DNA of 64,000 bases. Source: Proteus terrae subsp. cibarius. Its GTDB lineage: Bacteria; Pseudomonadota; Gammaproteobacteria; Enterobacterales; Enterobacteriaceae. The stretch is from NCBI RefSeq assembly GCF_011045835.1, contig NZ_CP047349.1:868001-932000 (forward strand). The letters are read 5' to 3'. Shown here piece by piece: positions 1-4,770 of the stretch; positions within the stretch are counted from its first letter, which is position 1, and each line of letters opens with the position of its first letter. The notes below the pieces were generated by a model. The model was not told where the DNA came from, did not search any database, and worked only from the letters and a program-made list of their open reading frames with translations. A program made the translations under genes and the position numbers.

Positions 1-323
1 TATTCTTCATTTTCAGTATCAAATGGATAATTCACTGCAAAATCAAGAAAGTGACTGTAAACCTCTTCCAGATCCCAAGGATCACAAATATCAATTTCGT
101 AAGGTAATACTTCTGTATCAGGAGAGACAGTATGAATATCTTCAATGATTTTTGATGCTAATATTGAATCATTGGGTTGATGGATCATGACCAATCGACT
201 AACGGGGAAATCTTTTTGATGGCAAATAGAAATTGTTGGACGCCATGAGTTCCATCTTTTATGGCTTTTTCCCCGTTTATCTAATGTTGTGCCTAAAACA
301 CCAATCACCACTTTGCGTTTCAT
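1..323 (-). CDS. rtcR: RtcR, sigma-54-dependent activator of RNA repair operon (partial, N-terminal part)
   Basis: The minus-strand frame starts at the ATG ending at 323 and runs off the left edge, so only about 107 N-terminal residues are visible. The translation begins MKRKVVIGVLGTTLDKRGK and continues with RWNSWRPTISICHQ and VSPDTEVLPYEIDICDPWD, which I recognise as the N-terminal CARF-type sensor domain of RtcR. The family adds a AAA+ sigma-54 interaction domain and a helix-turn-helix, both of which would lie outside the window. RtcR senses RNA-damage ligands and activates rtc genes at sigma-54 promoters. The gene is divergent from the slipin-rtcB operon, and a sigma-54 promoter lies between them at 489-506, which supports the call. 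Confidence 0.9.
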   Translation of the reverse strand, partial: MKRKVVIGVLGTTLDKRGKSHKRWNSWRPTISICHQKDFPVSRLVMIHQPNDSILASKIIEDIHTVSPDTEVLPYEIDICDPWDLEEVYSHFLDFAVNYPFDTENEE

Positions 324-488
324 TAAGTTATCCCTACTTATCTTTTTATCTATATTTATAAATGTATAGATAAAAAGATAAGTTTTTATCGATTTTAATT
401 CAATAGCTAAATATTTAAAAATTACACTGAAAATCCTTTTATTAATTAAAACATATAGTTATAAATATTTTTGGTGATATTTAAAAAC

Positions 489-506
489 TTGGCACGATAC
501 TCGCAA
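489..506 (+). promoter_or_regulatory. sigma-54 promoter of the RNA repair operon
   Basis: TTGGCACGATACTCGCAA carries GG at 491-492 and GC at 503-504 with exactly ten bases between, the sigma-54 -24/-12 arrangement. It differs from the TGGCACG-N4-TTGCA consensus by one base in the -12 element. The predicted transcription start is near 515, so the tRNA-like element at 561-648 and a long leader would be transcribed ahead of the slipin gene. RtcR, divergently encoded, is the expected activator. Confidence 0.85.
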
Positions 507-514
507 TATTATTA

Positions 515-650
515 ATGTCTTGAGCAGATTTTAAATCTGGTAGGCACATAAAGAACACTCTGTGGTGTTATCTAAATGTGTTCCTCCACATCGGGACTCT
601 GTAGGTGAAGAGGGTTATTTTCAGGTTCGATTCCTGACACCAAAACCATT
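515..650 (+). ncRNA. leader RNA with tRNA-like fold, RtcR/sigma-54 operon
   Basis: Between the sigma-54 promoter and the slipin gene lies a noncoding stretch with a tRNA-like element at 561-648. A canonical T arm is present: TCAGG (621-625), loop TTCGATT, CCTGA (633-637). It is followed by a seven-base acceptor strand CACCAAA (638-644), a discriminator A and an encoded CCA (646-648). TGTGGTG (561-567) pairs with the acceptor strand with one mismatch. Two further arms lie inside: ATGTG/CACAT (576-591) and CTCT/AGAG (597-612, loop GTAGGTGA). An extra hairpin CAGATT/AATCTG (525-539) precedes them. No normal D-arm/anticodon order is seen, so this is not an ordinary tRNA. tRNA-like RNAs such as YrlA occur in related RNA-repair operons. 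Confidence 0.65.
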
Positions 651-877
651 ACAAATCCAAATGTAAAATTAAATATAAAAAATCGTTGTGACAGCAGTAT
701 CGTCACCTTGCTTATCCACCAGCAACTACGCTGGATTGAAGGCAGAAGAAGAGACAAACAAAGTATCGTTCCTCTCTTGTTTTCCCTTCGATTTCGCCAA
801 GTTTGTTCGTGGGAAGCAAGTCACGATAAAAATGGTAATAAAAGAAAGCCAATAATAAAGAAGAGAAAAAGGAAGCA
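651..877 (+). other. structured 5' leader upstream of slipin gene
   Basis: No credible gene lies between the tRNA-like element and the slipin start. Two hairpins are visible: CCAGC/GCTGG around 719-734, and a longer interrupted pairing between CTTG..TTCCC near 776 and GGGAA..CAAG near 820. Its role is unknown; it could be a second RNA domain of the same transcript or a processing site. A good ribosome site (AAGGAAG) precedes the ATG at 878. Confidence 0.4.
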
Positions 878-2023
878 ATGATGATAAGAACAACAATAAA
901 AGTGAAACAGGGACAACTGGGTTTATTAAAGAAGGACGATGAATATATTGATGTCCTTGCTGTGGGTGAACATAAATTTTTCGATCTTCGCCGTCAATTA
1001 AGTGTTGAGCTGGTGGAATTAAACGGCCCTGCAATTGAAAGGGAAAAAGCTGAATTTTTACGCCAATATCATCCAGAATGGGTGAGTGAATATTGTTTTG
1101 ATATTGTGCTATCTGATGAAGAGATTGGCTTACTTTATGAAAATGGCTCTCTCAAAGAGATCTTATCGCCGAGTACTCGCCGCCTCTATTGGAATTATGC
1201 ACAGCGCTCAATGGAAGTGTTGTCAGCAAATGAATTGGAAGTTTCGCCAGCTTTGGTTAAAAAATTACAGTATCCAAAATTACGTAACCAGACGATAAAA
1301 GGCAGTGAAGGTGTATTAAGTGTGGATATTCCGACATGGCATGCTGGCATTATCCGTGTTAATGGTGAAACTCAATCACTATTACCACCTGGATTAAAAG
1401 GCTATTGGCGTTATCAGCACAAAGTTGATGTTGAAGTCGTTGATATGCGCTTGCAAACACTCGATGTAAGTGGTCAAGAGATCTTAACAAAAGATAAAGT
1501 GACCTTACGCATTAATCTGTCAGCGAGTTGGCGTTATCGCGACGTGCTTTCAGCGTACCAACTACTGAGTTCACCTCTTGAGTTCTTATATAAAGAGTTG
1601 CAGTTTGCGTTACGTGAAGCCGTAGGAACAAGAACATTGGATGAATTATTAGAAAATAAAACACTGATTGACAGTTTAGTGAGTGAAAAAATCAGGGAAG
1701 TGACTAAAGGATATGGCATTGAAGTAGCTTCATTAGGGGTAAAAGACATTGTTTTACCGGGTGAAATGAAAACGATTTTAGCGCAGGTGGTTGAGGCTGA
1801 AAAATCAGCTCAGGCTAATGTTATACGTCGAAGAGAAGAGACATCCGCGACACGTTCTTTATTAAATACGGCAAAAGTGATGGAAAACAATCCAGTAGCT
1901 CTACGATTAAAAGAGCTAGAAACCGTAGAACGTATTGCAGAACGTATTGATAAGATTTCCGTTTATGGTGGTTTAGACCAAGTATTAAACGGGCTAGTAC
2001 AAATTAAAGGAGCACAGGCATGA
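878..2023 (+). CDS. slipin-like SPFH/band-7 protein of RNA repair operon
   Basis: The 381-residue protein has an N-terminal region of about 130 residues without a recognised domain. An SPFH/band-7 domain follows at roughly 135-330, with VDVEVVDMRLQTLDVSGQEI and LREAVGTRTLDELLENK typical of slipins. A charged, probably helical tail includes VVEAEKSAQANVIRRREE. Slipins usually carry an N-terminal membrane hairpin; none is visible here, so this form may be soluble or peripherally attached. The ribosome site AAGGAAG precedes the ATG at 878; a second ATG follows at 881. Its stop overlaps the rtcB start (ATGA), implying translational coupling. Band-7 proteins paired with RtcB are known from comparative genomics of RNA repair, but their biochemical role is unsettled. 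Confidence 0.85.
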   Translation: MMIRTTIKVKQGQLGLLKKDDEYIDVLAVGEHKFFDLRRQLSVELVELNGPAIEREKAEFLRQYHPEWVSEYCFDIVLSDEEIGLLYENGSLKEILSPSTRRLYWNYAQRSMEVLSANELEVSPALVKKLQYPKLRNQTIKGSEGVLSVDIPTWHAGIIRVNGETQSLLPPGLKGYWRYQHKVDVEVVDMRLQTLDVSGQEILTKDKVTLRINLSASWRYRDVLSAYQLLSSPLEFLYKELQFALREAVGTRTLDELLENKTLIDSLVSEKIREVTKGYGIEVASLGVKDIVLPGEMKTILAQVVEAEKSAQANVIRRREETSATRSLLNTAKVMENNPVALRLKELETVERIAERIDKISVYGGLDQVLNGLVQIKGAQA

Positions 2024-3243
2024 TATTGGATCATCAAATAGTAAAAGAAGCAGGGACTGCTGAAATCAAAATGTGGACAAATGGTGTACCTGTTGAAGCA
2101 GATGCTCTAAAGCAACTTATCAATACCGCCAAGATGCCTTTTATTTTTAAACATATGGCAGTAATGCCCGATGTTCACTTAGGGAAAGGTTCAACAATAG
2201 GAAGTGTTATCCCAACAAAAGGTGCGATTATTCCGGCTGCTGTTGGTGTGGATATTGGATGTGGAATGATTGCGGTAAAAACATCATTACACGCAAATGA
2301 TCTGCCAGATAACTTATTTGCCATAAGAACGGCAATAGAAAGAGCAGTACCTCATGGACGAACAAGTTATCAGTCAGGGAACGATCGGGGTTCATGGAAG
2401 AACCCACCTAAACTTGTTGATCAACATTGGCAACAACTTGAAGGGCGTTTTAAGGTTTTAACTGATAAGTATCCGCGTTTACGAAATACGAATAACTATC
2501 GTCACCTAGGTACATTAGGAACAGGAAACCACTTTATCGAGTTGTGCCTTGATGAAGCAGATAATGTTTGGGTAATGCTACATAGTGGATCTCGTGGTGT
2601 GGGTAATGCTATCGGTACATTATTTATACAAATGGCACAAGAAGACATGAGAGAACATATCGCTAACTTGCCAGACAAAAATTTAGCGTACTTAAAAGAA
2701 GGAACGCTTTTCTATGATGACTATATAGAAGCCGTAGAATGGGCACAGGATTTTGCTCGACATAACCGTGAAATTATGATGGAACGTGTGTTGGCGGCAT
2801 TATCAACAGAAATAACTAAACCTTTTACGACTCAACAACAGGCAGTGAACTGCCACCATAACTATGTGCAAAAAGAAATGCACTTTGGTGAAGAGGTTCT
2901 GGTGACTCGAAAAGGGGCTGTTTCTGCTCAAAAAGGTGAAATGGGGATCATTCCGGGTTCAATGGGAGCGAAGAGCTTTATTGTTAGAGGTAAGGGAAAT
3001 GCCGAAAGTTTCTGTTCATGTAGCCATGGTGCAGGACGCGTAATGAGCCGAACCGCAGCGAAAAAAGCCTTTAGTGTTGAAGACCAAATTCGAGCTACAG
3101 CGCATGTGGAATGTCGAAAAGATGAAGATGTGATTGATGAAATTCCAATGGCTTATAAGGATATTGATGCTGTTATGAAGGCTCAGTTATCGCTTGTTGA
3201 GGTTGTTCATACACTACGACAGGTTGTTTGTGTAAAAGGATAA
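2020..3243 (+). CDS. rtcB: RNA-splicing ligase RtcB
   Basis: The 407-residue protein matches the E. coli RtcB length. RtcB ligates RNA ends carrying 2',3'-cyclic phosphate or 3'-phosphate to 5'-OH ends, using GTP and Mn2+. Metal-binding signatures are present: HMAVMPDVHLGKGSTIGSV and VGVDIGCGM (Cys about 81). The SCSHGAGRVMSR motif contains the histidine that becomes guanylylated (about residue 336). It overlaps the slipin gene by ATGA and sits in the operon behind the sigma-54 promoter. No rtcA cyclase gene follows; the next gene is mrpI on the other strand. The role is repair of cleaved tRNA or other RNAs, regulated by RtcR. Confidence 0.96.
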   Translation: MILDHQIVKEAGTAEIKMWTNGVPVEADALKQLINTAKMPFIFKHMAVMPDVHLGKGSTIGSVIPTKGAIIPAAVGVDIGCGMIAVKTSLHANDLPDNLFAIRTAIERAVPHGRTSYQSGNDRGSWKNPPKLVDQHWQQLEGRFKVLTDKYPRLRNTNNYRHLGTLGTGNHFIELCLDEADNVWVMLHSGSRGVGNAIGTLFIQMAQEDMREHIANLPDKNLAYLKEGTLFYDDYIEAVEWAQDFARHNREIMMERVLAALSTEITKPFTTQQQAVNCHHNYVQKEMHFGEEVLVTRKGAVSAQKGEMGIIPGSMGAKSFIVRGKGNAESFCSCSHGAGRVMSRTAAKKAFSVEDQIRATAHVECRKDEDVIDEIPMAYKDIDAVMKAQLSLVEVVHTLRQVVCVKG

Positions 3244-3678: not shown

Positions 3679-4245
3679 TTAATTTCTTATATCCCAAATG
3701 TGAACAAAGCGTTTTGAATTACTTGCAGTATAGATAACAGTATGTGAAATATTACGATGTCCCAAGTAATCCTGAATTAAGCGCGTATCTCTACCTAAAT
3801 CGGCCAAAGCATAGCCGCAGGCATGGCGAAGCATATGCGGATGAGGGGCAATGGATACATTAGCTTCCTTACCTAAACGACGAAGTAATCCATAAACTTG
3901 TTGACGTGAAATTGGGCCTGTTTTTTGAGATAAAAAGACCCATTCAGAATCCGATTCTCTCCATGTTTCCCGTTTTTTCAACCAGTTAACTAACGCATCA
4001 TATTCCTCTTCTATAATAGGTTGTGTTGTTGATAAACCTCCTTTTAAGCGCCTGACATAGAGTATCCTACTTTCCAAATCAATATCGCTTAAGGTTAGTC
4101 TGCATAGCTCACTAACACGAAATCCATGTAAAAAACACATTAAAAACATACAGTAATCTCTTTCTGGGTACCGTCCTTCTTTTGCTTGCTTCAAAATAGA
4201 GTTGATCTCAAAACGTGTAAGAAACTTACGTTGCTTCATTTTCAT
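3679..4245 (-). CDS. mrpI: MrpI, tyrosine recombinase controlling MR/P phase switch
   Basis: This is a FimB/FimE-type site-specific recombinase of about 188 residues. The catalytic set is visible: Arg in FLHGFRVSELCRLTLSDID, Lys in RRLKGG, H-x-x-R in HMLRHACGYALADLG, His in YLGHRN, and the nucleophilic Tyr in HTVIYT. The family inverts a promoter-bearing DNA segment. The frame stays open upstream to 4290, but MKMKQRKFLTR at 4245 fits the family length. An internal ATG at 4239 has better spacing from an AAAGG ribosome site, so the start is uncertain by two codons. It is divergent from mrpA, with the invertible element at 4467-4762 between them. Confidence 0.93.
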   Translation of the reverse strand: MKMKQRKFLTRFEINSILKQAKEGRYPERDYCMFLMCFLHGFRVSELCRLTLSDIDLESRILYVRRLKGGLSTTQPIIEEEYDALVNWLKKRETWRESDSEWVFLSQKTGPISRQQVYGLLRRLGKEANVSIAPHPHMLRHACGYALADLGRDTRLIQDYLGHRNISHTVIYTASNSKRFVHIWDIRN

Positions 4246-4466
4246 AACCTTTTCAATGAGATAACAAGGAACAAAAGTCAATTGATACATAACTATAACA
4301 AGTAATATATATCAATAAAGAGTTGTGTTTTTTTTATGCTTGCACTTTTACTTGTTAATTTTAAACAAGTTTATTGAAAGTTTATTTATTTTTAGAAAAT
4401 GAAAGTGATTGATTGACAAAGCGAAAAATGAATATAGATAGGAATTCGGCCATCTTTAGAGAAATA

Positions 4467-4762
4467 AACAGAATACACCAAATTGTTTACTATTATTCTC
4501 TGGCTTCTCACTTAAGTCAAATTTAATGTTCATCACATATCATCATTTATTTAACATATTGATATTTATCATTATTTCAAAAATCAAATATGATTAGTTA
4601 CTTTGTTTAAAATCTAGAAATAAATTTTTTTACTTTTTTCACAAATTATAGTAATTGCACTTAGAATTATAAACTCTTTTTCTGATATTTAAAGTTAGAT
4701 TATCTAAATGTGTTTGATTTCGAGATGAAAATTTTTAACAAAACAATTTGGTGTATTTTGTT
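4467..4762. repeat. MR/P invertible element with imperfect 22-bp inverted repeats
   Basis: The left repeat 4467-4488 and right repeat 4741-4762 are inverted copies with the shared core AATACACCAAATTGTTT preceded by AACA and one differing base. Exactly 252 bases lie between them (4489-4740), the size reported for the P. mirabilis mrp switch. MrpI recombines the repeats and flips the promoter. Two promoter-like patterns lie inside: TTCACA (4638) - 18 - TAGAAT (4662) on the plus strand, and TTTATA - 17 - TATAAT (4645-4673) on the minus strand. I cannot decide by eye whether this copy is ON or OFF. Confidence 0.9.
4638..4667 (+). promoter_or_regulatory. candidate sigma-70 promoter inside the switch, pointing to mrpA
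   Basis: TTCACA and TAGAAT are each one base off consensus, with an 18-base spacer. If this is the real mrp promoter, the window shows the ON orientation. The overlapping minus-strand candidate TTTATA-17-TATAAT (4645-4673) has a perfect -10 and would mean OFF. The assignment is therefore tentative. Confidence 0.35.
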
Positions 4763-4770
4763 TTGTTTCT

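Follow-up and report, generated by a model that had tools for sequence, protein, structure and literature searches.

The slipin–rtcB operon of Proteus terrae subsp. cibarius is preceded by a leader that is best explained, on comparative grounds, as a structured noncoding RNA in which a reduced tRNA mimic lies between a multi-helix domain on the 5′ side and a hairpin domain on the 3′ side. Its likely protein partner is the slipin encoded directly behind it. The window, i.e., the whole stretch of 64,000 nucleotides that was analysed, contains in this order rtcR on the minus strand, a σ54 box, the structured leader, slipin and rtcB, with rtcR divergent from slipin–rtcB. The features are located as follows:

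1..323, minus strand: 5′ part of rtcR, start codon at 321-323; the whole gene encodes 530 aa and continues outside the window (translation of L114 and tblastn against 80 loci).
336..383, no strand: perfect 19-nt inverted repeat with 10 nt between the arms, 154 to 107 nt upstream of the σ54 box on the rtcR side.
490..504, plus strand: σ54 promoter (TGG...GC), box TTGGCACGATACTCGC, with GG at 491-492 and GC at 503-504; consensus and position are kept in Enterobacterales relatives.
517..597, plus strand: domain I, with helices P0 (GTC 517-519/GAC 595-597), P2 (525-530/534-539) and P3 (543-558/565-584).
604..648, plus strand: domain II, tRNA-like, with acceptor, T arm 621-637, A645 and CCA 646-648.
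649..666, plus strand: hairpin P5, TTACA-AATCCAAA-TGTAA, directly after the CCA.
690..850, plus strand: domain III, structured and reaching the slipin ribosome-binding site; scored helices at about 717-808, long hairpin.
878..2023, plus strand: slipin, Band_7/SPFH (PF01145), 381 aa, carrying two additional beta domains at the N-terminus.
2020..3243, plus strand: rtcB RNA ligase (PF01139, E 7.9e-131), overlapping the slipin stop.

With its divergent rtcR, σ54 box and rtcB, the locus has the make-up of an RtcR/σ54 RNA repair operon. Neither Rsr/TROVE nor RtcA (PF01137) has a match in the genome; the operon is thus without rtcA and not of the rtcBA type. RlaP, an RNA-ligase-associated nucleotidyltransferase (PMC7824862), occurs in this genome only elsewhere, near 2.177 Mb, away from the rtc locus. 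PADLOC matched nothing for slipin, RtcB or one RlaP. In P. aeruginosa, PaFlo8 is reported to be located within the rtc locus (PMC13086221).

Judging from the −12 element at 504, transcription is expected to start near 516, and no convincing plus-strand gene was found in the 360 nt between this position and slipin. The inverted repeat at 336-383 is possibly an enhancer site for RtcR. Some form of palindrome is present between rtcR and the σ54 box in 13 of 17 relatives examined and absent from the other four; these palindromes are mostly shorter than the one in the window and lie at other places. A shared palindrome as RtcR site was rejected, being inconsistent among relatives. Further along the window, 23-nt inverted repeats (4466-4488/4741-4763) flank a 252-bp segment beside an ORF at 3679-4290 on the minus strand. 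We take this ORF to be tyrosine recombinase-like and its neighbours to be fimbrial-looking, and the region 3679-4763 presumably resembles a fimbrial phase switch.

A preliminary description, made from the letters of the window, had placed a tRNA-like RNA at 515..650, within an RtcR/σ54 RNA repair operon without Rsr. The operon type and the missing Rsr are borne out (no TROVE match in the genome, YrlA model unmatched), and an RNA at this place is upheld; its limits are not, as the conserved structured leader extends from about 516 to about 850. In domain I, P3 carries a conserved bulge (581-582); P0 was taken from the alignment by eye and is unscored, while P2 and P3 come from the fold and from covariation counts. 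The T stem of domain II (621-625/633-637, TCAGG/CCTGA) is perfect and closes the loop TTCGATT (626-632), after which come an acceptor-like 3′ strand of 7 nt (CACCAAA, 638-644), A645 and CCA. The T arm, the seven-nucleotide acceptor strand, the discriminator A645 and the CCA that had been described between the σ54 box and slipin–rtcB could thus all be located. Full pairing of the acceptor does not hold: in the window, only GGTG (604-607) pairs with CACC (638-641), i.e., four of seven pairs, whereas P. hauseri forms six and betaproteobacteria up to seven. Nor does the supposed permuted order of the D arm, since the "D-like loop" GTAGGTGA (601-608) contains the acceptor 5′ strand and neither a D arm nor an anticodon arm was seen in the Proteus RNA. 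Both a canonical tRNA and a tmRNA were rejected; ARAGORN calls neither at the window, and the resemblance to tRNA consists of the T arm and the four-pair acceptor. In every one of the 35 distinct Enterobacterales copies, the T arm is followed by a hairpin of at least four pairs, counted without a chance control. The P5 loop, at 654-661 in the window, often has UCC in the window and relatives. The fold of the whole leader (515-877) has a z of −3.8; for the 142-nt stretch by itself, the value is ordinary (z −0.5). Because this short-stretch fold energy is unremarkable, the support for the RNA rests on comparison.

The comparison set consisted of the best 80 of 568 slipin-locus relatives, selected by slipin. 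Among them are 45 Enterobacterales other than Gilliamella (L011-L054 and L058), the rest being Gilliamella, betaproteobacteria and a few others. In 75 of these 80 loci (best 80 of 568), the T-arm motif GGTTC[GA]AN[TC]CC is found no more than 500 nt before slipin. The five exceptions are L056, whose upstream sequence is only 334 nt long, L063 and L086, in which the motif occurs farther upstream, and Xenorhabdus hominickii (L041) and Providencia stuartii (L045), which are without it; in the last two, the T arm is missing but domain I is present. Since the motif gives 2 background matches in 461 kb, on one strand of the rest of 44 Enterobacterales loci, a T-arm leader in 75 of the best 80 is beyond chance.

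Covariation among homologous loci had been set beforehand as the test on which the proposal would fall, and it was found for the leader fold, for the acceptor helix and for domain III. Alignment A1 comprises 41 leaders, i.e., the window and 40 of the 44 Enterobacterales loci L011-L054 (L013, L015, L017 and L020 are omitted). Its consensus fold has 24 pairs, 20 of them with both-sided changes. Pairing occurs in 92.8% of the cells, against 76.3% when shuffled and 42-54% when slid (maximum 53.6%), both-sided cells number 189 against 61 in the control, and covariation is 0.598 against 0.288; pair types are no more numerous than in shuffles (43 vs 42.3). RNAalifold misses the acceptor helix in A1, owing to its variable spacing, which is why this helix was tested by partner swapping, on distinct copies only. 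The 35 Enterobacterales copies score 365 against 272 ± 18 with swapped partners, and the 18 betaproteobacterial-type copies 265 against 170 ± 15; in both groups, none of 1000 swaps reaches the own score. At least five acceptor pairs are formed by 24 of the 35 and 16 of the 18 copies, respectively, while pairing is absent in three Enterobacterales copies (L026, L040, L031) and limited to three pairs in six more. The CCA is in register in nine Proteus copies, two of them shifted by one base. It is found at offsets 7-9 in only 19 of the 44 Enterobacterales copies having a T arm, and is not general there. In Klebsiella/Citrobacter-type leaders (e.g., L033, L035, L044), the acceptor 3′ strand can alternatively pair with the strand of the following hairpin, possibly forming a two-state switch. 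For domain III, alignment A3 contains 28 hand-chosen copies (27 loci and the window), in which 91.4% of the cells are paired, against 76.4% when shuffled and at most 51.7% when slid, and 17 of 20 pairs have both-sided changes. The RNAalifold covariation term is unfavourable here (+3.9), though the controlled pair counts support the helices.

Model R1, built from Enterobacterales leaders, was applied to 39 loci and the window. On the 35 unseen loci from outside the Enterobacterales group, it gave 15 matches upstream of slipin with E from 3e-6 to 0.06, among them L055 (3.2e-6), L073 (2.5e-5), L062 (6.4e-5), L068 (4.6e-4), L079 (5.1e-4) and L086 (9.5e-4). The other 20 gave weaker matches than E 0.06 or none, and the few matches elsewhere in the loci all had E above 0.3. 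A phylum-wide R1 search of 398 genomes returned only the own genome; it used strict filters, scored seven candidates in each genome and probably included few genomes with slipin, and so carries little weight. By DNA similarity, the leader has no match among phages or plasmids, and one weak match of 34 nt in another family among 197 genomes.

Which gene the RNA accompanies was examined in 246 genomes of the family, using R1 with strict filters and 11 candidates scored per genome. Slipin was found in 23 genomes and R1 matches in 23; 22 genomes have both, and in 22 of 22 the two are adjacent. Eleven of the 21 matches outside the own genome are identical to training sequences over 130 nt, and ten are new. 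The single R1 match without slipin (G700) is tRNA-Ser. The single slipin without RNA (G768, locus L117) is a remnant of the last ~100 residues, beside a full-length RtcB match, and neither RtcR nor R1 has a match within the 4.5 kb fetched there. In genome G612, both the slipin and the RtcB reading are fragmented.

The presence of RtcB and RtcR was judged on the fetched loci only, at E 1e-10, so that more diverged copies would be missed. RtcB is unmatched in 15 of the 80 fetched loci, again the best 80 of 568 (L022, L023, L031, L033-L035, L038, L042-L044, L047, L050, L053, L062 and L084), and the T-arm motif is kept in all 15. L081 is unjudged because its contig ends, and in L063 and L076 RtcB occurs only elsewhere in the locus. 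Six genes standing at RtcB's place were tested; five are RlaP (PF10127), and that of L084 matches nothing. Among loci with 4 kb or more of upstream sequence, RtcR is undetected in 13 (L050, L062-L066, L069, L072, L074, L076 and L083-L085), 12 of which have the motif within 500 nt; in L063 it lies farther upstream. Three loci (L050, L062, L084) match neither RtcB nor RtcR. Because the RNA persists without an RtcB or RtcR match in the locus, slipin and RNA are the constant pair. From the three partners named in the preliminary description, this gene content singles out the slipin as the likely one, and RtcB and RtcR look dispensable, within a set of loci selected by slipin.

In other lineages, a second tRNA-like unit appears. 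Two T-loop motifs are present in 20 loci (best 80 of 568), mostly from betaproteobacteria. Their first unit forms up to seven acceptor pairs and has CCA at offsets 7-9 in 18 of 20; the second unit, which has a D arm, comes immediately after it. This second unit is called a tRNA by ARAGORN (60 loci scanned, namely 59 from the set of 80 plus the own locus once) or by Rfam in many loci, and in betaproteobacteria and Gilliamella it is nearly complete (Rfam tRNA 40.6-54.9 bits in the four loci scanned). Six Gilliamella loci (L059, L060, L067, L075, L077, L079) have one motif, which belongs to a unit of the second type; five of these loci have CCA at offset 8. Alignment A2 covers 28 of the 32 second units. 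Since their anticodon loops differ in length and identity, decoding by these units is unlikely. The Enterobacterales loci L011-L054 have one motif or none, so no second unit was seen there. Eight loci (L064, L065, L066, L069, L070, L072, L074, L076) carry arrays of 5 to 18 tRNA genes upstream of the leader on the same strand, and RtcR is undetected in all of these except L070.

The abstract of a 2016 study by Burroughs and Aravind reportedly mentions SPFH/Band-7 modules with "a novel tRNA-like molecule". As relayed by a later source, that study connects RNA repair with homologs of Band-7/MVP and with ncRNAs of the operons (Burroughs and Aravind, 2016, via PMC13404743). The Band-7 RNA repair operons described there are alike in having a tRNA-like RNA by a Band-7 gene together with RtcB, and RlaP occurs in them too. 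The Proteus leader has a Band-7/SPFH neighbour in a repair operon, and its T arm and acceptor covary. It is filed here with the Band-7-linked tRNA-like RNAs of repair operons, the published molecule being known by description only. The three-domain leader, its reduced form in Enterobacterales and the two-unit form in betaproteobacteria were measured here and may or may not be contained already in the 2016 paper. In the literature searched, as far as its accessible text goes, a description of the RNA in Proteus was not found, and operon ncRNAs with MVP homologs were met only in PMC13404743. When seven leaders were compared with Rfam 15, neither the 5′ domain nor the first tRNA-like unit matched a family over cut-off; the only match was that of the second unit of other lineages, to tRNA. 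Besides these operons, the eukaryotic vault RNP (MVP and vault RNAs) is among the closest known systems. In Anabaena, TrcR represses rtcB together with a slipin gene and an operon of 26 tRNAs, and this repression is relieved under translation stress (PMC10272220). The upstream tRNA arrays of the L064 type recall that operon; the TrcR regulon differs in being without an RtcR homolog, and a linked tRNA-like leader is unmentioned in the accessible part of the same source (PMC10272220).

How might the RNA act? The slipin resembles stomatin, HflK and major vault protein (alignments A4 and A5 hold 29 slipins, L074 being omitted for a stop within its reading). Stomatin and HflK form rings or cages. 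The promoter match, the covarying fold, the tRNA-like end and the slipin linkage are the data on which the following proposal rests, to which we give about an even chance: the leader would be transcribed upon tRNA damage and would act in trans, as a slipin-bound tRNA mimic that aids tRNA repair. In keeping with such induction, tRNA halves bearing a 2′,3′-cyclic phosphate activate RtcR in Salmonella (PMC7790460). The leader would be the cognate RNA of the operon's slipin, and its T-arm/acceptor minihelix with encoded CCA may be what a slipin ring or cage grips, as a tRNA-shaped RNA. Once processed and held by the slipin, it could serve as a scaffold uniting damaged tRNA with the repair enzyme, i.e., RtcB, or RlaP in other genomes.

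A slipin partner acting in trans is favoured over a leader acting in cis, which we consider a serious, if less probable, competitor. Here, the RNA would stay on the mRNA and control translation or stability of slipin–rtcB, and either the slipin or some general tRNA-binding factor would hold the mimic. Some tRNA-handling proteins are indeed controlled by tRNA-mimicking leaders. Every checked match lies upstream of slipin on the same strand, no unlinked match besides tRNA exists in the 246 genomes, and the constant position just before the first gene fits a cis-acting leader equally well. Domain III is structured almost to the ribosome-binding site, and the alternative acceptor pairing of the Klebsiella/Citrobacter type could be a switch. 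However, the near-complete tRNA-like unit in the leaders of betaproteobacteria and Gilliamella would be expected to be cut out, and in L063 and L086 the RNA lies farther upstream of the fetched slipin match.

The trans-acting reading can be carried further, speculatively and with considerable doubt: the slipin may be a soluble vault-like shell, and the leader, once its tRNA-like acceptor end has been processed, a tRNA-shaped counterpart of vault RNA that docks an exchangeable RtcB or RlaP to act on damaged tRNA at or within the shell. The vault-like outline was anticipated by Burroughs and Aravind (2016), according to PMC13404743; what is new is the idea that the RNA stays with the shell while the enzyme is interchangeable.

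An unlikely alternative in view of the slipin linkage, which it leaves unexplained, is that the mimic serves as a lure or a reporter for nucleases that cut tRNA, or is a competitor for enzymes of tRNA processing. It would account for the tRNA-like end. In Salmonella, moreover, YrlA is a tRNA-mimicking RNA of the RtcR-controlled operon, which is induced by tRNA cleavage; competitive inhibition by YrlA was floated by the authors (PMC7790460). But anticodon nucleases have no evident target in the Proteus RNA, as no anticodon arm was seen there, and YrlA fragments went undetected in Salmonella (PMC7790460). That the RNA is itself a YrlA-type Y RNA left after loss of Rsr is very improbable: YrlA of rsr-yrlBA-rtcBA operons is likewise a tRNA mimic under RtcR, in the same kind of operon (PMC7790460), but it goes with Rsr, whereas the Proteus genome has no TROVE gene and the YrlA covariance model (RF02553), searched with E limits of 5 and 10, matched nothing at the locus. 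Weaker evidence comes from 247 Enterobacterales genomes, none of which exceeded the YrlA cut-off under strict filters, but no control genome exceeded it either; the match in L074, covering its tRNA-like units, scores 26.5 bits where the cut-off is 69. Equally hard to credit is that an ordinary tRNA gene was captured along with the operon and that this RNA is its relic. The near-real tRNA character of the second unit in betaproteobacteria and Gilliamella could suggest this, but pairing kept across groups and varying anticodon loops in the second unit point to a kept non-decoding role, and the T-loop motif is kept rather than drifting in 75 of the best 80 of 568 loci.

RNA repair operons and vault particles both have small RNAs of unsettled role. 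The leader RNA described here can be traced through dozens of genomes, and its company suggests that the slipin, and not the ligase, is its protein. The pairing of slipin and RNA opens direct tests in bacteria that can be manipulated.
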